From positions 1-31,161 of the IMG/VR virus record IMGVR_UViG_3300035564_000159: a DNA stretch of 31,161 bases. One strand, 5' to 3'. A program made the translations under genes and the position numbers. This DNA is from a virus. The notes beneath the pieces are model-generated. The model was not told where the DNA came from and made no database searches. It was given only the letters and a program-made list of their open reading frames with translations. Positions 15,297-30,734 of this stretch are shown piece by piece; positions within the stretch are counted from its first letter, which is position 1; every line of letters starts with the position of its first letter.

Positions 15297-15392
15297 ATGA
15301 AATTAATTTGCGAAGACCCATGCAGCGAAAGATTTTATTTTGCGATAACCCCGGACGAAGACAGAGAAGTCCTCCACTTCTCTTCCTCTTAG
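15297..15392 (+). CDS. Possible 31-codon leader peptide inside the structured region
   Basis: ATG 15297 to TAG 15390-15392 encodes a peptide starting MKLICEDPCSERFYFAIT and ending in HFSSS. The composition is protein-like, but the ribosome-binding site is weak (AGGCGAG). The last codons cover the AGAGAAGT hairpin, and the stop sits in the 5' arm of the 18-bp helix. A translating ribosome would therefore block that helix, the usual arrangement of an attenuator peptide. Confidence 0.35.
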   Translation: MKLICEDPCSERFYFAITPDEDREVLHFSSS

Positions 15393-15507
15393 AGTTTGTA
15401 ACTACACTGAATAATGAATAAATTTGAGATGCCATTCACTTACTACTTGTGAAGACACCAAGGTTCAAACCACTTTCGTAACTCGGCAGGTTACAAACTC
15501 TAAGAGG
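15385..15507 (+). repeat. Perfect 18-bp inverted repeat (long-range helix)
   Basis: CCTCTTAGAGTTTGTAAC (15385-15402) is the exact reverse complement of GTTACAAACTCTAAGAGG (15490-15507), with 87 bases between. Its 3' end shares GAGG with an alternative 7-bp hairpin just before the ribosome-binding site of the next gene. Confidence 0.8.
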
Positions 15508-15542
15508 TCTCTTTCAAGACCTCATTCACATGGAGGTGAATT

Positions 15543-15806
15543 ATGTCTGAAACTTTTGTAGTAAACGGGTCTGTAACTGATGTCGAACTTCGAGACCCAA
15601 AATATCCAAACATAAAAGTTCGTTTGGATGAGTGTGATGGGAATGCTTTTTCAATACTTGGTGTTGTTACAAAAGCATTGAAAGAGAATGGGGTGAGTAC
15701 GGAAGAACGAAGTCAGTTCATGACCGAGGCAGTCGCAGGAAATTACGACCATCTTCTTGCAGTCTGCATGTCCTGGGTAAACACTTGGGACTTGGAAGAG
15801 CAATAA
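15543..15806 (+). CDS. Conserved phage protein of unknown function (87 aa)
   Basis: ATG 15543, seven bases after GGAGG and just outside a hairpin that holds that site in its loop. The central pattern 'LDECDGNAFSILGVVTKALKENGVS ... FMTEAVAGNYDHLLAVCMSWV' is one I associate with a small conserved protein seen in many phages, plasmids and mobile regions. Its role is unknown. First gene of the structured-leader block. Confidence 0.75.
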   Translation: MSETFVVNGSVTDVELRDPKYPNIKVRLDECDGNAFSILGVVTKALKENGVSTEERSQFMTEAVAGNYDHLLAVCMSWVNTWDLEEQ

Positions 15807-15811
15807 AATTC

Positions 15812-15868
15812 GTTGAACCACACATCTGCAGTTTAGGAAACTAGACTGCAGGCAGGGTTGTTCAACCC
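15812..15868 (+). promoter_or_regulatory. Leader RNA element E1
   Basis: Closing helix GTTGAAC (15812-15818)/GTTCAAC (15860-15866); left loop CACACAT; 11-bp helix 15826-15851 with GAAA tetraloop; right loop GCAGGGTT; then CCC. Alternative hairpin GGGTTG/CAACCC. The ribosome-binding site follows in the loop of ATTCAC-ATGGAG-GTGAAT. Confidence 0.75.
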
Positions 15869-15888
15869 AATTCACATGGAGGTGAATA

Positions 15889-16296
15889 ATGAACGGACTA
15901 ATTAGATGGAACCTGGCAGAAGTCGAAAAACTTGTTGAGTTAACTCACTATGCCAAAGTGCACAACAAGATGTTTGGTCACCGCAAAGAAATCCCTGGTC
16001 TTATCCTGGTGAAAGACCAAGGGATTTATCTTATCTCCACCAAGACCTATCCTAAAGGAAAGTCACCTGCAACAGAGGGTGAAGTTCTTTATGCGAAGGG
16101 TTTTGGTCCGGATGCTGACTGGGATAAAGTCCAGTCTGCAGCAGGTGGTGATGACTTTGCGGAATTACTTCCACTGACTGACTTGGATAAAATCATCAAC
16201 ACCTTGAAAGACCAGAAGATTGATTTGAACCAAGCACGCTTGGTGGTTGAATTCTCTGACCGCTGTTTCAAGATTGGAGTAGGGGTCAAGAAGTGA
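15889..16296 (+). CDS. DUF3085-like protein (135 aa)
   Basis: Start at ATG 15889 after GGAGG. The middle of the protein, 'GLILVKDQGIYLISTKT ... VLYAKGFGPDADWDKVQSAAGGDDFAELLPL', matches the pattern of DUF3085 ('lv.DqGvYl ... vaYa.g.dp ... GGDD..E'). The biochemical role is unknown; these proteins are common on phages and plasmids. The stop is followed at once by leader element E2. Confidence 0.65.
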   Translation: MNGLIRWNLAEVEKLVELTHYAKVHNKMFGHRKEIPGLILVKDQGIYLISTKTYPKGKSPATEGEVLYAKGFGPDADWDKVQSAAGGDDFAELLPLTDLDKIINTLKDQKIDLNQARLVVEFSDRCFKIGVGVKK

Positions 16297-16352
16297 GTTG
16301 AATGCACATCTGTCCATCAGGAGACTGGTGGACAGTCAGGGTAATTCAACCC
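16297..16352 (+). promoter_or_regulatory. Leader RNA element E2
   Basis: Begins at the first base after the upstream stop. Closing helix GTTGAAT (16297-16303)/ATTCAAC (16344-16350), with a compensatory change from E1; left loop GCACAT; 11-bp helix 16310-16335 with GAGA tetraloop; right loop TCAGGGTA. The ribosome-binding site sits in an ATGC/GCAT hairpin. Confidence 0.75.
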
Positions 16353-16370
16353 AATGCTATGGAGGCATGA

Positions 16371-16610
16371 ATGATTACAAGAGGTTGTATCCAAGAAGAA
16401 CGTCGTGACGCAAGAGAGTACAAAAACCCGTACCCCCATGGTTCATATCTTTGGGCAAGGGCATATTGGAGATACTTGACCTTGAGTGAAATAAAGGCAT
16501 ATATGATTGCTGACATCAAACAAGGTCGGTATCCAGTAGACATCACTGTAAAAGAACACATCATTGCAACTGCTCTGCAAAGTGAATATGAAACTATTCA
16601 CGACCTATGA
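16371..16610 (+). CDS. Hypothetical protein (79 aa)
   Basis: ATG 16371 after GGAGG. The small charged protein has a Tyr/Trp-rich middle (YPHGSYLWARAYWRYLTLSE). No domain is recognised. It is flanked by leader elements E2 and E3, and its stop codon abuts E3. Confidence 0.68.
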   Translation: MITRGCIQEERRDAREYKNPYPHGSYLWARAYWRYLTLSEIKAYMIADIKQGRYPVDITVKEHIIATALQSEYETIHDL

Positions 16611-16667
16611 GTTGAGCAACACATTTGCCCATTAAGAAATTAGTGGGCAAGCAGGGTCGTTCAACCC
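16611..16667 (+). promoter_or_regulatory. Leader RNA element E3
   Basis: Begins at the base after the stop. Closing helix GTTGAGC (16611-16617)/GTTCAAC (16659-16665), using one G-U pair; left loop AACACAT; 11-bp helix 16625-16650 with GAAA tetraloop; right loop GCAGGGTC. The ribosome-binding site is in the loop of ATTCAC-TGGAG-GTGAAT. Confidence 0.75.
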
Positions 16668-16685
16668 ATTCACTGGAGGTGAATA

Positions 16686-17102
16686 ATGAAACAGAATGAA
16701 GAGTACATCAAGTTCATCAAGGACAACGAGTTGGATAAAGAACCATGTTACGGTTTTTATGATTGGTTCTGTACTAACAAAGCACTGCCTGCTCGAAGTC
16801 GCCGATTGATGCGGAAAATGTTGGAAGTCTTTGATGCCAACAAGGTTGGTCATGTGTTTGACCAGTCTAAAATCAAGGTCTTCTTCAAGAACAACTGCCC
16901 GTGTGTTGGTAAGTTGTATGATGACTTCCGTATCTGTGACAAAGAGACTGGTGAAGTTTTATTCACCATTGTCCCTGCATCTGGTTTTGACCGAAACTTT
17001 GGTCAACCTGAATTGTGGGCACGAATAAAAGACAGTGAGAAGATGGCGGAAATAAGAGTCAATGAATGGTCTGAAGTTGTGGAGTGGTTCAAAGAAGATT
17101 GA
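16686..17102 (+). CDS. Hypothetical protein (138 aa)
   Basis: ATG 16686 after GGAGG. A soluble, mixed alpha/beta protein with a helical first half ('GFYDWFCTNKALPARSRRLMRKML') and a beta-rich second half ('KIKVFFKNNCPCVGKLYDDFRICD'). I do not recognise a family. Its stop codon TGA is part of the closing helix of element E4. Confidence 0.68.
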   Translation: MKQNEEYIKFIKDNELDKEPCYGFYDWFCTNKALPARSRRLMRKMLEVFDANKVGHVFDQSKIKVFFKNNCPCVGKLYDDFRICDKETGEVLFTIVPASGFDRNFGQPELWARIKDSEKMAEIRVNEWSEVVEWFKED

Positions 17103-17189
17103 CCCTCACATCCGTTCTCGAGCAAGTCTCGTAGGTTGCTAGCAATCACAGACTTATGACTCGAGAACGGTCAGGGATGGTTCAATCCC
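17098..17189 (+). promoter_or_regulatory. Leader RNA element E4 (extended-arm form)
   Basis: ATTGACC(C) (17098-17105) pairs with GGTTCAAT (17179-17186) with one mismatch and contains the upstream TGA. Left loop CTCACAT; perfect 11-bp helix 17112-17122/17160-17170. In place of a tetraloop, a second helix AAGTCT/AGACTT and a TTGC/GCAA tip extend the arm. Alternative hairpin GGGAT/ATCCC shows compensatory change against GGGT/ACCC elsewhere. Confidence 0.7.
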
Positions 17190-17202
17190 AATGGAGGTAA
17201 TA

Positions 17203-18234
17203 ATGTCTGACAATATTTTTGGTGAACGTTTTATGTCCGTTCGTCAACCGGCTTGGCATGGTCTGGGAACTGTTATCCAGAAGGCAGTCAAGCCAAGTCT
17301 CGCAGTCAAGAAATTCCATCTTGATTACGAAGTCGGAACATACCCAATGGTTGCAATCGTCGGGAAGAAACAAGTCAAGACCGACAAGGTCGCAATCATG
17401 CGGTCTCCCACTGCTGAAGATAAACAGTGGAGACTGTTTGGGACGGCTGGCGGGAAGTACGAGATTGTCCAGAATAAGGACCTCGCAAATATCATGGACA
17501 CAATCCACGAAGTCTGGGGGTTGGAGACCATGGGTGCGATTGACCTTGGCAAGACAATCTTCATGACCTTCAAGACTGGTGACCAAGACATTGAAGGTGA
17601 CCAGATTAAAGGTTACTTCCTCGTGACGGATACCAAGGATGGTGGAACTTCGGTCAAGTGTGCTTATACACCTGTTCGTGTCGTGTGTTCAAACACACTG
17701 CGGTCAGGTCTAAAGCAAGCGACCATCGCCATCAACATCCAGCATATCACTGGGGCAAAAGACCAACTGGCAGCAAGGGTTAACCTGATTGCCAAAGCAC
17801 AGAAGGCTATTGATGAAACAACGATGGTCTTCAGGCAGTTGGCGAATGCCAAGGTAACTACCAAGCAGGCTGAGTTGATGTTCGACCAAGTTTACCCTCT
17901 TCCTAAAACCCCGGAAGATATGGCACTGGTCGATTACTCGCAGGAAGACCTTGGTGCACTTTTGTTCAAGGGTGTGCAAGACTCCATGTATGCCTACAAC
18001 TTCTATACCAAGCAAGCCCAAGACCTTCGGGCAGGGGCAAGCGAGTTGTACGAGAAGTTGAACGACGAGTATCCTAATCTCGCCGGAAGTGCTTGGCATG
18101 TGTGGAATGCTATCGTGGAGTCTGCTGACTTCCGTGATGGTGGACGAAGCCCTGAAATTTCTTCCTTGTTTGGAGCAAGGGCTCGTGAGAAGGCGACTGC
18201 TTTCAAACTCGCGACCCAGTTCATTAAGAAATAA
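17203..18234 (+). CDS. DUF932 / TIGR03299 phage-plasmid protein (343 aa)
   Basis: Starts at ATG 17203; the ATG at 17191 lies within the ribosome-binding site ATGGAGG. The N-terminus 'FMSVRQPAWHGLGTVI' and the regions 'YEIVQNKDLANIMDTI', 'DGGTSVKCAYTPVRVVCSNTL' and 'NIQHITGAKDQLAARVNLI' match the DUF932 (TIGR03299) family, widespread on phages and plasmids and about this length. No biochemical function is established that I can state with confidence. The strongest family match in this gene block. Confidence 0.85.
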   Translation: MSDNIFGERFMSVRQPAWHGLGTVIQKAVKPSLAVKKFHLDYEVGTYPMVAIVGKKQVKTDKVAIMRSPTAEDKQWRLFGTAGGKYEIVQNKDLANIMDTIHEVWGLETMGAIDLGKTIFMTFKTGDQDIEGDQIKGYFLVTDTKDGGTSVKCAYTPVRVVCSNTLRSGLKQATIAINIQHITGAKDQLAARVNLIAKAQKAIDETTMVFRQLANAKVTTKQAELMFDQVYPLPKTPEDMALVDYSQEDLGALLFKGVQDSMYAYNFYTKQAQDLRAGASELYEKLNDEYPNLAGSAWHVWNAIVESADFRDGGRSPEISSLFGARAREKATAFKLATQFIKK

Positions 18235-18236
18235 GA

Positions 18237-18328
18237 GTTAAACTACCCCAGTGCTCGTAAGTCCAAAACCTGAAGCACATTACCCCTTCATGGCGACAAC
18301 CTTACGAGCACAATGGGTCGTTCAACCC
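18237..18328 (+). promoter_or_regulatory. Leader RNA element E5 (extended-arm form, divergent)
   Basis: GTTAAAC (18237-18243)/GTTCAAC (18320-18326) pairs at 6 of 7. Perfect 11-bp helix GTGCTCGTAAG (18251-18261)/CTTACGAGCAC (18301-18311), with an apical arm TGAAG/CTTCA. Left loop TACCCCA and right loop AATGGGTC depart from the consensus, but their lengths (7 and 8) are kept. Confidence 0.65.
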
Positions 18329-18342
18329 GAATGGAGGTTTAC

Positions 18343-18633
18343 ATGAGTTACGCAGATGTCAAAAGTTTCAAACCCTATTATCACATCATGCTATTCGCAC
18401 ACGGGTTTGAGTCTATTGACTTTGAGGCTCATGAGGTCGATGAAATCCAGTCTACCGTTGCTGGCATAGTTCAGAACTATCGCATAGCAAGGGAGGAATG
18501 GATAGCAGGAAAGATATTCGACATCGATACGAATGAGTTGGTTGGCACTGTTGTTTATCCAACCGGCAAGGTCTTAGACATGGCAGGCAACCCTGTCAAG
18601 TATGGATGGAAGATGATTAGGGACTTGGATTGA
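18343..18633 (+). CDS. Hypothetical protein (96 aa)
   Basis: Start at ATG 18343, five bases after GGAGG; an in-frame upstream ATG at 18313 lies inside element E5. Mixed alpha/beta, with 'YHIMLFAHGFESIDFEAHEVDEI' and 'GKIFDIDTNELVGTVVYPTGKV'. No family recognised. The stop TGA (18631-18633) is part of the E6 closing helix. Confidence 0.68.
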   Translation: MSYADVKSFKPYYHIMLFAHGFESIDFEAHEVDEIQSTVAGIVQNYRIAREEWIAGKIFDIDTNELVGTVVYPTGKVLDMAGNPVKYGWKMIRDLD

Positions 18634-18685
18634 ACTACGCATTTGCAGCCAAGGAGACTTGACTGCAAGCAGGGTCGTTCAACCC
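18630..18685 (+). promoter_or_regulatory. Leader RNA element E6
   Basis: TTGAAC (18630-18635) pairs with GTTCAA (18677-18682) and includes the upstream stop. Left loop TACGCAT; 11-position helix 18643-18668 with one C-A mismatch and GAGA tetraloop; right loop GCAGGGTC; then CCC and GGAGG four bases on. Confidence 0.7.
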
Positions 18686-18698
18686 GAATGGAGGTAAA

Positions 18699-18965
18699 AT
18701 GATAGATAATCAAACTCGAAAAGATATTCTTGCAGCAAGAGTACTAATCCTTCAAAAGCAGGGTTGGATTTTACTCAATCAAGCAGACTTCTCTGCCCAG
18801 TTAAGATTGCCTAAAGGAAATCCTAATGGGTGTTTGCTTTTCTTCCTGCTTATCCTTGCAGTCCTTCCAGCAGTGATATACCTGATACTCTGGTCTATGA
18901 AGAAGGAGGATGTTATAACTCTTGCGGTCGATGAGACCGGTCAAGTAAGTATGATACGAAATTAA
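18699..18965 (+). CDS. Small membrane protein with one transmembrane segment (88 aa)
   Basis: ATG 18699 after GGAGG. The first ~40 residues are soluble ('LILQKQGWILLNQADFSAQLRLPKG'). Residues about 45-67 form a strong membrane segment (LLFFLLILAVLPAVIYLILW) followed by KK. The C-terminal tail ends 'VDETGQVSMIRN'. It could act at the host membrane, but no family or function is assigned. Confidence 0.7.
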   Translation: MIDNQTRKDILAARVLILQKQGWILLNQADFSAQLRLPKGNPNGCLLFFLLILAVLPAVIYLILWSMKKEDVITLAVDETGQVSMIRN

Positions 18966-18975
18966 TCCCAAACCT

Positions 18976-19059
18976 TGTTCCTCCCCTTCTCTGGGGTTGG
19001 GACGGTTTGGGTTCGCCTCCAGGCTCAAACATTCCTGACCCCAACGAAGTGGAGGAACA
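18976..19059 (+). promoter_or_regulatory. Multi-stem leader RNA before the last early gene (E7, different type)
   Basis: Outer helix TGTTCCTCC (18976-18984)/GGAGGAACA (19051-19059), perfect 9 bp. Inside: CTTC/GAAG (18986-18989/19046-19049), GTTGGG (18996-19001)/CCCAAC (19040-19045), or alternatively TGGGGT/ACCCCA, and GTTTG (19005-19009)/CAAAC (19026-19030). It lacks the E1-E6 consensus. The real ribosome-binding site AAGGAG lies outside. Confidence 0.55.
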
Positions 19060-19081
19060 CATTCAATAGAAGGAGAAATGT

Positions 19082-19255
19082 ATGGCAGAGACCAAGGAAG
19101 AAATCATGGCGAAAATGAACAAAGCAGCGAGTGATGCAGAAGCCGAGTTCAAAACCACATGGACCGGTAAGCAGGTCGCAGAGTGGATGAAGAAATGGTA
19201 TATGCAAGCAGGGTATAAGCGATTGTGCAAAATCCTGCTCGCCCAGTACAAATAA
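19082..19255 (+). CDS. Small charged protein (57 aa), last gene of the rightward operon
   Basis: ATG 19082 to TAA 19253-19255, with AAGGAG upstream. The ATG at 19078 is in another frame and gives a short unlikely peptide. The product is helical and charged (MAETKEEIMAKMNKAASDAE at the start, 'WMKKWYMQAGYKRLCKILL' later), with Trp and Tyr typical of a real small protein. The terminator follows within five bases. No function assigned. Confidence 0.7.
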   Translation: MAETKEEIMAKMNKAASDAEAEFKTTWTGKQVAEWMKKWYMQAGYKRLCKILLAQYK

Positions 19256-19259
19256 AAGA

Positions 19260-19297
19260 AAAACCCCCGGGACTGTTCAAGGTCTCGGGGGTTTTTT
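19260..19297. terminator. Strong rho-independent terminator between convergent operons
   Basis: AAAACCCCCGGGAC (19260-19273) pairs with GTCTCGGGGGTTTT (19282-19295) with one G-U, loop TGTTCAAG, and a T-run follows. The A-run on the left makes it work on the minus strand too, ending both the rightward early operon and the leftward late operon. Confidence 0.93.
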
Positions 19298-19313
19298 ATT
19301 GCCTGTTCGTAAA

Positions 19314-20590: not shown

Positions 20591-21418
20591 CTAAGCAGGT
20601 TGCAAGAATTTGAATGTGACCCAAGTATTATTGGTCAGTTGTACATAAGTATTCACTACGGTCAATGGGGTTTTTATCTGCAATACATCACCTACCTTTG
20701 CGGTCGTCAAGAGTGCATAAGCGGTTGATGGTCCTGACCGAATATTGCAGGGGGTAATTACTCGATACGGTAGGGAAGGAGGAAGAACTACCGGAGGTAA
20801 TATACCCCCTGCAAGTTTCGCCAAAGCAGTCTGGTCACCGCTGAAAAAGTTATGGTCGACCTGAAGACTTTGACATCCATACTTTTGACCATCTGCTCGG
20901 TCAGTGTTCTGCCAGAACAACCAGTTGGTCCAGGGCTTAGGTACTCGAACGATAAACTGGAAGGCTGTGTACCAAGGCAACCAGAGTGGATACTTTGCCC
21001 ACTTAGGGTCGTTCGAACCCCAGTCATTCCAGTAGTAATACCCGACATAGACCATGGGAGTTTTACCCAGGGCTTGTTCTACATATTGTATGAAGTTCCA
21101 GGCACGTGTGGAAACATCGGTTGCCCTCATCCCTGCGAACGGCTTCATCTCTAGGTCCAAGCAGGGTGGAAGTTCCCCAGGGTCAGGTCGCAGGAAGTCG
21201 CAGAACATTCTTGCTTGTGACAACCAGTCAAGACCCCAGTCGAGGTAATGATAACCGCCACGAGGCATAAAGCCTTTGGCACCGTTCCAAGTCTCTTGGA
21301 ACCGTTGGTCCATTCCCCACTGACTGACCTTGACATAAAGAAAAGTAGAACCTGCGGTAACCGCTTTTATCGGGTCTAACTTTCCTTCCCACTTGCTCGT
21401 ATCAATTCCTTCAAGCAT
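20591..21418 (-). CDS. Endolysin: GH25 lysozyme with C-terminal SH3b domain
   Basis: 275 residues. The GH25 fold starts GIDTSKWEG (D6) and carries the catalytic DLE of 'CLDLEMKP' (D88, E90), with 'YVGYYYWND' and 'FWQNTDRADG' further along. GH25 enzymes cut the MurNAc-GlcNAc bond of peptidoglycan. Residues about 215-275 ('YRVITPCNIRSGPSTAYALLTTAKVGDVLQI') are an SH3b wall-binding domain. There is no signal peptide, so release by a holin is expected. This domain pair is usual in phages of Gram-positive hosts. Confidence 0.92.
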   Translation of the reverse strand: MLEGIDTSKWEGKLDPIKAVTAGSTFLYVKVSQWGMDQRFQETWNGAKGFMPRGGYHYLDWGLDWLSQARMFCDFLRPDPGELPPCLDLEMKPFAGMRATDVSTRAWNFIQYVEQALGKTPMVYVGYYYWNDWGSNDPKWAKYPLWLPWYTAFQFIVRVPKPWTNWLFWQNTDRADGQKYGCQSLQVDHNFFSGDQTALAKLAGGILPPVVLPPSLPYRVITPCNIRSGPSTAYALLTTAKVGDVLQIKTPLTVVNTYVQLTNNTWVTFKFLQPA

Positions 21419-27968: not shown

Positions 27969-28539
27969 TTTTCACCTTCAGAGACTGGTTGAATATCGCC
28001 TCTGCTTCTCGTTCTTCAATGGTCAGGTTATTATCATCTTCTGGCAGGCCGAATACTTCTTCCATCTCCCTTGCCATGTGTCGTTCTTCTTTCGTTGCTT
28101 CACCGGTCTTTATCCGTTTACGAATATTGACCATGCTACAAAAAGCCGTTTCACTACCAAGGTCCATGAACAGTGCAAGAAATTTCCACCAGTGCATGTT
28201 CATTTTCTCAAGGTCTATTCCATGGGTCTGACGAAAAGCAGCGAAGATAAAATTGGCGTCCTTTGAAAAGGAATAAACTCTCAGACCCGGTTCTGTAGTG
28301 CTTATAACTTCCTTGCCACCATTCAAGAACTTAATTCCCTGCTTCAGTGCTTCTTCAATGTTGGTCGGAATTACAGGGTACATCAACTCAAGCATGATGA
28401 TGTTCTTCTCATACATCGCTATTTCAGGGTCTTCAAATGCCAGAATGATTTTCAAGCAAGTACGAAAGTCTGTGACAATCTTATAAACCTTGTCACCAAC
28501 TTTCACCCTAGTAGGAAGTTCATCAACAAGAATATTCAT
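27961..28539 (-). CDS. Tail assembly chaperone, Gp15 family (192 aa)
   Basis: Bacteriophage Gp15-type protein. 'YKIVTDFRTCLKIILAFEDPEI' near the start, 'DLEKMNMHWWKFLALFMDLGSETAF' in the middle and 'EEREAEAIFNQSL' at the end are characteristic of this family, which in A118-like phages lies just before the tape measure gene and acts in tail assembly. Start overlaps the upstream stop (ATGA) with little ribosome-binding site, so translational coupling is likely. Confidence 0.82.
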   Translation of the reverse strand: MNILVDELPTRVKVGDKVYKIVTDFRTCLKIILAFEDPEIAMYEKNIIMLELMYPVIPTNIEEALKQGIKFLNGGKEVISTTEPGLRVYSFSKDANFIFAAFRQTHGIDLEKMNMHWWKFLALFMDLGSETAFCSMVNIRKRIKTGEATKEERHMAREMEEVFGLPEDDNNLTIEEREAEAIFNQSLKVKNG

Positions 28540-28994
28540 TGCATGATAGTCCGAGGTTTACGACCTTTACCTTTAGCAGGTTGAATTTTAGGAACGTACT
28601 TTACGACCTTTTCTTCCCTGGAGGATTTTATGTAAGGAGTGATACCAGAAAAGAACTGCTCGAACGCCCGCAAGACCATTGCATCCCCAAAGCACTTCTG
28701 ACTTGTACCTGTTCCGAACACTATGTCAATTTGTTCTCGGAGATAACTGCACATGTCGTTTATAAGCACAAGGCTTCCTGGAAGAGTCGACAAATCTTTT
28801 TCCCCTTTGCTTTCCAGTTTTAACTTATCTGCTCGTGCATCAAAATCTTTTTTCTTTTCAGCGAAGTCTTGCATGAGTTTATAGAACTTATCCACGAATA
28901 AAGTATCTTCAGGGTTGAACTCTATAAACTCTGGTCCTCCGTTTATGAGAAGATGCACAATCCCACTATCGATTACAAGGTTCCTAGTTTCCAT
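28536..28994 (-). CDS. Tail assembly chaperone, first component (152 aa)
   Basis: Precedes the Gp15-type gene and follows the tail-tube genes, the usual slot for a gpG/gp14-type chaperone. Helical, with 'INGGPEFIEFNPEDTLFVDKFYKLMQDFAEKKKDF' and 'YLREQIDIVFGTGTSQKCFGDAM'. The basic C-terminus ends KGKGRKPRTIMQ. AAGGAG precedes the ATG. I see no slippery sequence at the junction, so overlap coupling rather than frameshifting is favoured. Confidence 0.72.
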   Translation of the reverse strand: METRNLVIDSGIVHLLINGGPEFIEFNPEDTLFVDKFYKLMQDFAEKKKDFDARADKLKLESKGEKDLSTLPGSLVLINDMCSYLREQIDIVFGTGTSQKCFGDAMVLRAFEQFFSGITPYIKSSREEKVVKYVPKIQPAKGKGRKPRTIMQ

Positions 28995-30302: not shown

Positions 30303-30734
30303 TTATGGGTCTTGCATGTAGAATAGTCTACACTGTATTTGATAGACACCGGTCTCTGACGCACCTTCTTCATACAAGTATCCAGACCCAGTGGCTTCCA
30401 GTTTTACTGCGGTCTTTTTACTTGGCAGGGTTGGCAAACTATCTTTTATATATTCAGACTCCAACCAATCTGAGAATGCTTCGTAAAATCCACTCGACTC
30501 CAACCGTTCCAATTCATCTGCTGTACTTTCCATCGATTGAAAAGCGAATGGATAAACTTTGTAAGCACCTTCATTTAAGTATCTTTCAACGACTGCTTCA
30601 CCTGGTTGTGGAACAATCGAGTAGGCAGTTGGGTCTGTTCCAAGATAGTTGACCCATACAGGGGAATTGGCTTTAAGAGAAGTGTATCCGGCAAGATATT
30701 CTTGAAGACCTTCGAGTATAGTTGTAACTGTCAT
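30303..30734 (-). CDS. Minor capsid/tail completion protein, Minor_capsid_3-like (143 aa)
   Basis: In A118/PSA-type phages this slot holds a protein annotated minor capsid (Minor_capsid_3) that probably acts as tail terminator. The order 'minor capsid 2 - this - tail tube' and the pattern 'ILEGLQEYLAGY ... PVWVNYLGTDPTAYSIVPQPGEAVVERYLNEGAYKVYPFAFQS' fit. Start overlaps the upstream stop (ATGA), with AAGGAG. Confidence 0.75.
   Translation of the reverse strand: MTVTTILEGLQEYLAGYTSLKANSPVWVNYLGTDPTAYSIVPQPGEAVVERYLNEGAYKVYPFAFQSMESTADELERLESSGFYEAFSDWLESEYIKDSLPTLPSKKTAVKLEATGSGYLYEEGASETGVYQIQCRLFYMQDP

Follow-up and report, generated by a model that had tools for sequence, protein, structure and literature searches.

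In the window analyzed here, the complete IMG/VR virus record IMGVR_UViG_3300035564_000159 (31,161 bp, with portal, terminase, PrimPol, PolA and tail genes), seven genes form a rightward block (positions 15543-18965) in which all six gaps (15812-18685) hold an RNA element of about 60 nucleotides (nt) with the same architecture. These six homologous elements, denoted E1 to E6 in the order of the block, were each found at the place where an initial annotation had put them. The element is a structure at the RNA level with three covarying helices. Judging from the sequence and its context, this RNA probably acts on each gene's part of the shared message by cutting it, capping it or controlling it in another way, and the specific interpretation that we tentatively favor is a multicopy cis-acting module that marks the boundaries between consecutive cistrons, that is, a putative cut-and-cap cistron separator.

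Architecture and covariation of the element

From 5' to 3', the consensus consists of strand a, a left linker, the hairpin P2, a short linker ending in A, strand b, a 6-nt loop, strand b' and the Shine-Dalgarno (SD) sequence. Strand a (consensus UUGAAC) lies at the upstream stop codon or overlaps it, and the P2 hairpin comprises 10-14 bp and is capped by either a variable loop or a long arm. Strands b (GGGU or GGGAU) and b' (ACCC or AUCCC) form P3, a hairpin of 4-5 bp just before the SD (consensus GGGAU-CGUUCA-AUCCC), the loop of which is 6 nt long in 23 of the 24 distinct copies considered below and 5 nt in one. The last five loop nucleotides (a') complement strand a, and the resulting helix P1 joins the strand at the upstream stop codon to the P3 loop. 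The closing helix, the 11-bp helix and their repetition from gap to gap had been described correctly in the initial annotation, but that description was incomplete in that the third covarying helix was missed: the CAGGGT that had been taken for a right-hand loop forms, with the trailing ACCC, the helix P3, which competes with the ends of the closing helix. The constant 11-bp length of P2 is likewise a property of the window copies and is not strict among the relatives, and the GAAA/GAGA-type caps are GNRA loops that occur in window copies only.

Across the 24 distinct copies, 98.6% of the cells in the three helices together are paired and 18 of the 22 pairs show two-sided changes; since P2 and P3 guided the alignment, these two helices lean towards the model whereas P1 was outside it, and since the copies are paralogs, the independent events are fewer than the cells. 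None of 500 shuffles matched this level of pairing and slid controls reached at most 51%, which bears out the earlier argument that the compensatory changes reflect real RNA structure. P3 is paired in all 24 copies, as GGGU/ACCC, GGGAU/AUCCC, GGGAC/GUCCC, GAGGC/GCCUC, GGUGC/GCACC or GGGGU/ACCCC, and in P1 the exchanges lead from UGAA/UUCA to AGAA/UUCU and AGAGC/GCUCU. Pairing in the P2 arms amounts to 98.9%, and 11 of the 12 pairs carry two-sided changes; within the window, the 11-bp arm has a different sequence in each of the six copies and retains its complementarity throughout. Given that the arms vary yet remain complementary, a DNA operator as the main role was rejected. Among the unpaired positions, only the A before GGG (23 of 24 copies), the U before P2 (22 of 24) and the first A of the P2 loop are near-invariant; the others mostly carry 0.5-1.2 bits and are weakly to moderately conserved. 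The single-strand folding z-scores of E1 to E6 are -5.9, -3.6, -5.6, -6.0, -5.6 and -2.9, respectively (for E4 and E5, the stretches folded ended at or before the element end).

Homologs and novelty

Pattern scans identified relatives in four other IMG/VR contigs (L069, L097, L244 and L248), which were recognized as true by the hairpin that the arm forms between their two conserved ends. Three of these contigs (L069, L097 and L248) belong to one close group and L244 is a relative of that group, mostly with 55-78% protein identity; as many as about a dozen copies occur in a single contig, and almost every copy sits between a stop codon and an SD. Among the called open reading frames (ORFs), the window shares with this distant second phage group only PolA (~25% identity), DUF932 (~26%) and an endolysin (49%). 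A covariance model, the check that had been recommended at the outset, gave 45 matches corresponding to the 24 distinct copies at 49-86 bits, and it recovered E4, which had been left out of training, with 50.7 bits (E 5.9e-13); among 1.2 Mb of other viral DNA, no unrelated match exceeded 31 bits, and the top one proved to be a different, plain hairpin with T-rich sequence after it. Two weak matches, in L206 (31 bits) and L221 (27 bits), were discarded, the former as a simple hairpin with a T-rich tail, the latter as coding sequence. A structural descriptor combining a/a', P2, P3 and the SD had no match with a score of at least 14 in 5.2 Mb of unrelated strands. The plain 14-base pattern CAGGGTNNTTCAACCC hit IMG/VR nearly always by chance, true homologs becoming apparent only when P2 pairing was required, and the pattern matches in genome_contigs lacked P2 and were rejected.

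No described RNA family was matched by the element, in line with the initial annotation: Rfam 15 gave no match at gathering level in the window, and a relaxed search gave only chance-level matches (miRNA, CRISPR and one short viral pseudoknot model). Similar DNA was absent from 50,697 phage records. Among named phages, no DNA match to the block, L097 or L244 was found and element matches were at chance level only; Brevibacterium phage LuckyBarnes has several gene types in common with the window, and no element was found in it. A protein-based search of IMG/VR revealed no close relatives of the window phage. The element was also not found in about 1,190 bacterial genomes of three phyla, a weak negative given that no positive-control genome was included, and a limited literature search found no paper describing this RNA. 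Three outcomes had been set beforehand as counting against the proposal of the initial annotation (no covariation, no homologs, an Rfam match), and none of them was observed.

Genomic context

In nearly all copies, the stop codon of the preceding gene either overlaps strand a or ends 0-10 nt 5' of it, in agreement with the earlier remark that the elements start at or within stop codons, and the SD follows P3 by approximately 3-11 nt. As had been anticipated, the homologs in the other phages precede other, unrelated genes. The unit headed by a module comprises one to several genes, and no module is present where genes overlap. The DUF932 genes of L097 and L244 are located outside the element block, and the idea of DUF932 as a linked gene was dropped; the block gene first taken for DUF932 is phrog_421.

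Two folds or a pseudoknot

Given that the closing helix uses the loop of the P3 hairpin, the RNA must form either a pseudoknot or two folds in competition, namely state A, the nested long hairpin P1+P2, and state B, P2+P3. The nested fold comprises 18-28 bp in 23 of the 24 copies and 35 in E4. The closing helix can be extended by two pairs into b' (paired in 22 and 19 of the 24 copies, with U-A/C-G and A-U/G-C exchanges) and also inwards with b (such as GCA/UGC in the case of a GGUGC strand b), and these extension pairs exclude P3. Depending on how near-identical copies were collapsed, permutation tests gave p values of 0.0026-0.059 for the outer pairs and of 0.00015-0.13 for the inner pairs, a measure that includes one pair compatible with P3. 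Of these two pseudoknot-free folds, the nested one is favored energetically, with a minimum free energy of mostly -24 to -36 kcal/mol, compared with about -18 to -27 kcal/mol for P2+P3 in most copies. In partition-function models of 23 copies, the median probability of P3 increases from 0.03 in the intact RNA to 0.95 without the 5' half, and access to the SD barely shifts (0.48 vs 0.55). In a set of 17 scored copies, blocking of strand a, as expected from a terminating ribosome, brings P3 above 0.9 in 10 copies that start at 0.35 or less. Sequestration of the SD as the output was rejected, with no consistent effect in either the 17-copy or the 23-copy models. The extension of P1 into the P3 strands suggests that states A and B compete, unless the P1 core and P3 coexist as a pseudoknot.

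Possible functions

Among the ideas put forward initially, RNA processing sites fit best, a preference that stems from the anatomy of the element. Under the separator model, the intact message would fold into state A, an irregular hairpin of 18-28 bp that is similar in size to T7-type RNase III sites, and an endonuclease, most simply RNase III, would cut ahead of GGG, in the 3' side of this hairpin. The mRNA upstream of the cut would then terminate in the P2 hairpin, and the freed 5' end would refold into P3, a terminal hairpin capping the downstream mRNA at its SD, so that each translational unit would become a separate protected mRNA. This model accounts for the retention of both folds, the closeness to the stop codon and the SD, and the indifference to gene identity; the observations that we count for it are the covariation of P1, P2 and P3, the retention of pairs that exclude P3, the shift of P3 between the intact and the truncated RNA, the placement between stop codon and SD, the unrelated genes that follow, the lack of the module at overlapping genes, and the likeness to the T7 R1.1 hairpin described below. 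The module could also represent a new phage RNA class, a portable cistron separator of about 60 nt in which two exclusive folds recruit cleavage and then cap the 5' end, or which acts as a pseudoknot roadblock, although we would commit to this wider formulation only with considerable reservation.

Several points weigh against the separator. The mechanism, with its predicted cleavage, is derived from anatomy; a conserved hairpin like P3 is not required at RNase III sites, and P3 may therefore serve some other purpose; the evidence for two folds is modest, with a static pseudoknot as the alternative; and most copies are paralogs from one phage group. In addition, two copies depart from the usual context. 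The copy at L069 6633-6698 (minus strand; G002 20926-20991), where a 32-aa upstream ORF ends on strand a, has no SD directly after it, and the next gene starts about 150 nt further on. The copy at L244 2828-2896 (minus strand; G003 30579-30647) has no upstream gene within reach; only a 5-codon ORF (MVGED), possibly a leader peptide or a chance occurrence, ends on strand a.

A translational operator regulon, in which one phage or host RNA-binding protein would read a pseudoknot ahead of each block gene and co-regulate translation, seems to us doubtful, although it is the likeliest of the alternatives: the same structure precedes many unrelated genes of one block and adjoins the SD, the pseudoknot operator of T4 gene 32 and the RegA regulon with its roughly 30 mRNAs provide precedents (PMC3014915), and the near-invariant A before GGG and U before P2 are possible contacts. 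However, apart from the first A of the P2 loop, the remaining unpaired bases are only weakly to moderately conserved and the helix sequences vary freely, and the proteins found to be common to both phage groups (PolA, DUF932 and endolysin) include no known RNA regulator. The position of the stop codon and the response of P3 to the blocking of strand a would also be expected of a termination-sensing coupler, in which a ribosome stopping near strand a opens P1, P3 forms and the downstream SD senses upstream translation. Such coupling is unlikely, given that access to the SD is not consistently altered by the switch and that one copy has only the 5-codon ORF upstream; moreover, the close placement of the stop codon may just mirror compact genomes. 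Rather improbable, too, is a static roadblock, that is, a pseudoknot that halts 5'-3' decay by an RNase J-like exonuclease and shields the downstream cistron without a dedicated cut: a compact, pseudoknot-compatible fold directly 5' of each unit and the nearly constant length of the P3 loop are what this explanation calls for, but it renders the extension of P1 into the P3 strands superfluous, and yet these pairs are kept.

The initial annotation had also considered small-molecule binding. A small-molecule riboswitch or a self-cleaving ribozyme would be a compact structured leader with competing folds, as observed here, but we regard either as very improbable in view of the lack of an Rfam match even at relaxed thresholds, the many copies before unrelated genes and the scarcity of conserved unpaired positions, only three of which are near-invariant. 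Ligand pockets and catalytic cores are unlike such weak conservation of unpaired bases. The unchanged access to the SD, together with the few conserved unpaired bases, argues against a riboswitch that masks the SD in particular.

Comparison with known systems

To our knowledge, it is rare for a phage operon to carry structured RNAs that recur at one gene start after another, the known cases being single operators, fixed motifs and RNase III sites. The RNase III signals of T7 early mRNA are irregular hairpins with unpaired internal stretches between consecutive phage genes. T7 R1.1, for instance, is a 60-nt intercistronic hairpin that is cut once into 47 and 13 nt (PMC4858673). By analogy, the T7 intercistronic signals appear to be the nearest system by behavior: the module is also an irregular intercistronic hairpin of about 60 nt, with a nested fold of 18-28 bp in nearly all copies and present once per gap, but it differs in having the covarying, SD-adjacent P3 that competes with the closing helix. 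By placement, the nearest system is SAS/ESAS of cluster K mycobacteriophages, which is also repeated just before gene starts, with up to 19 copies per genome before the start codons of non-structural genes and, in ESAS, an inverted repeat upstream (PMC3203893). However, SAS is a fixed 13-bp motif (GGGATAGGAGCCC) that contains the SD, with at most two mismatches, and the ESAS arms do not covary and were judged to be likely DNA-protein sites with little support for RNA pairing (PMC3203893), whereas in the module the SD lies outside the P3 consensus and the arms covary strongly. Membership in SAS/ESAS was excluded on the motif and on the pairing of the P2 arms. By structure, the nearest system is the T4 gene 32 operator, a pseudoknot in a phage mRNA leader upstream of the initiation region; it lies 67 nt from the start codon, gp32 spreads through A+U-rich sequence, and in 2010 it was called possibly the only viral pseudoknot in translational autoregulation (PMC3014915). 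That operator serves a single gene, whereas the module occurs in many copies, 3-11 nt before the SD, and is built of other helices. In the module, the covariation of both the P1 core and P3 would fit a pseudoknotted leader, but the competing extension pairs are kept too.

What sets the module apart is its strong covariation across two phage groups whose detected common proteins are just 24-49% identical, its absence from Rfam and the combination of an intercistronic hairpin with a competing SD-adjacent hairpin. Should the module segment and cap messages, synthetic operons would gain a compact natural insulator, and the module would show how phages with dense operons set an expression level for each gene; in the case of a regulon-wide operator, its reader protein should be findable.

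The individual elements and neighboring features

All six elements lie on the plus strand. E1 (15812-15868; 57.4 bits in the covariance model) precedes the gene at 15889-16296 and consists of strand a GTTGAAC (15812-15818), P2 CTGCAGTTTAG/CTAGACTGCAG with a GAAA loop (15826-15851) and P3 with GGGT (15855-15858), loop TGTTCA (15859-15864) and ACCC (15865-15868), followed by the SD GGAGG. E2 (16297-16352; 55.9 bits), before the gene at 16371-16610, has strand a GTTGAAT (16297-16303) and P3 with GGGT (16339-16342), loop AATTCA and ACCC (16349-16352), and E3 (16611-16667; 54.4 bits), before the gene at 16686-17102, has strand a GTTGAGC (16611-16617) and P3 with GGGT (16654-16657), loop CGTTCA and ACCC (16664-16667). 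E6 (18629-18685; 50.8 bits) precedes the gene at 18699-18965; the TGA in its strand a, ATTGAAC (18629-18635), is the upstream stop codon, P2 has one mismatch, and P3 is formed by GGGT (18672-18675), loop CGTTCA and ACCC (18682-18685). These four copies constitute a 58-nt direct-repeat family.

In E4 (17097-17189), before the DUF932 gene (17191/17203-18234), strand a is GATTGA (17097-17102), again including the upstream stop codon TGA, P2 carries a long arm, and P3 comprises GGGAT (17174-17178), loop GGTTCA and ATCCC (17185-17189). E5 (18237-18328) precedes a gene at 18343-18633 (from the ATG; a longer ORF starts at 18313) and is the copy in which the closing helix, initially assigned to every gap, is mismatched (GTTAAAC/GTTCAAC), with a degenerate strand a at 18237-18243. 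The full covariance model misses E5, matching only its GGGTCGTTCAACCC end, that is, the P3 end, with 10.6 bits, and the element was recognized by its position, its 11-bp helix (GTGCTCGTAAG/CTTACGAGCAC, with a long arm) and its P3 hairpin (GGGT 18315-18318, loop CGTTCA, ACCC 18325-18328); the ACCC of its left linker can also pair with GGGT.

The leader of the first block gene (15385-15539, plus strand) contains a possible further relative, E0, which resembles the elements by eye. A perfect 18-bp stem (15385-15402/15490-15507) encloses 87 nt, and a second hairpin, GAGGTCT-CTTTCA-AGACCTC, the 5' strand of which overlaps the long stem, has a 6-nt loop ending in TTCA and lies just before an SD hairpin. 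E0 looks like a P3-like, outsized relative and not a full member. Small hairpins with the SD in the loop (TTCAC-ATGGAG-GTGAA type) occur before the first gene (15524-15541) and after E1 (15870-15887), with a shorter form after E3 (16668-16684).

Downstream of the block, a very stable long hairpin at 18963-19070 (-50.8 kcal/mol, z -6.0), unlike the E elements, precedes the last small gene (19082-19255). It is followed at 19258-19300 by a strong hairpin resembling an intrinsic terminator (ACCCCCGGGAC...TCGGGGGTTTTTT), which probably ends the rightward transcript after that gene. No tRNA or tmRNA was found in the window. In the leftward structural region, the ORF at 28536-28994 contains an imperfect inverted repeat (28875-28931) with 24-nt arms separated by 9 nt.

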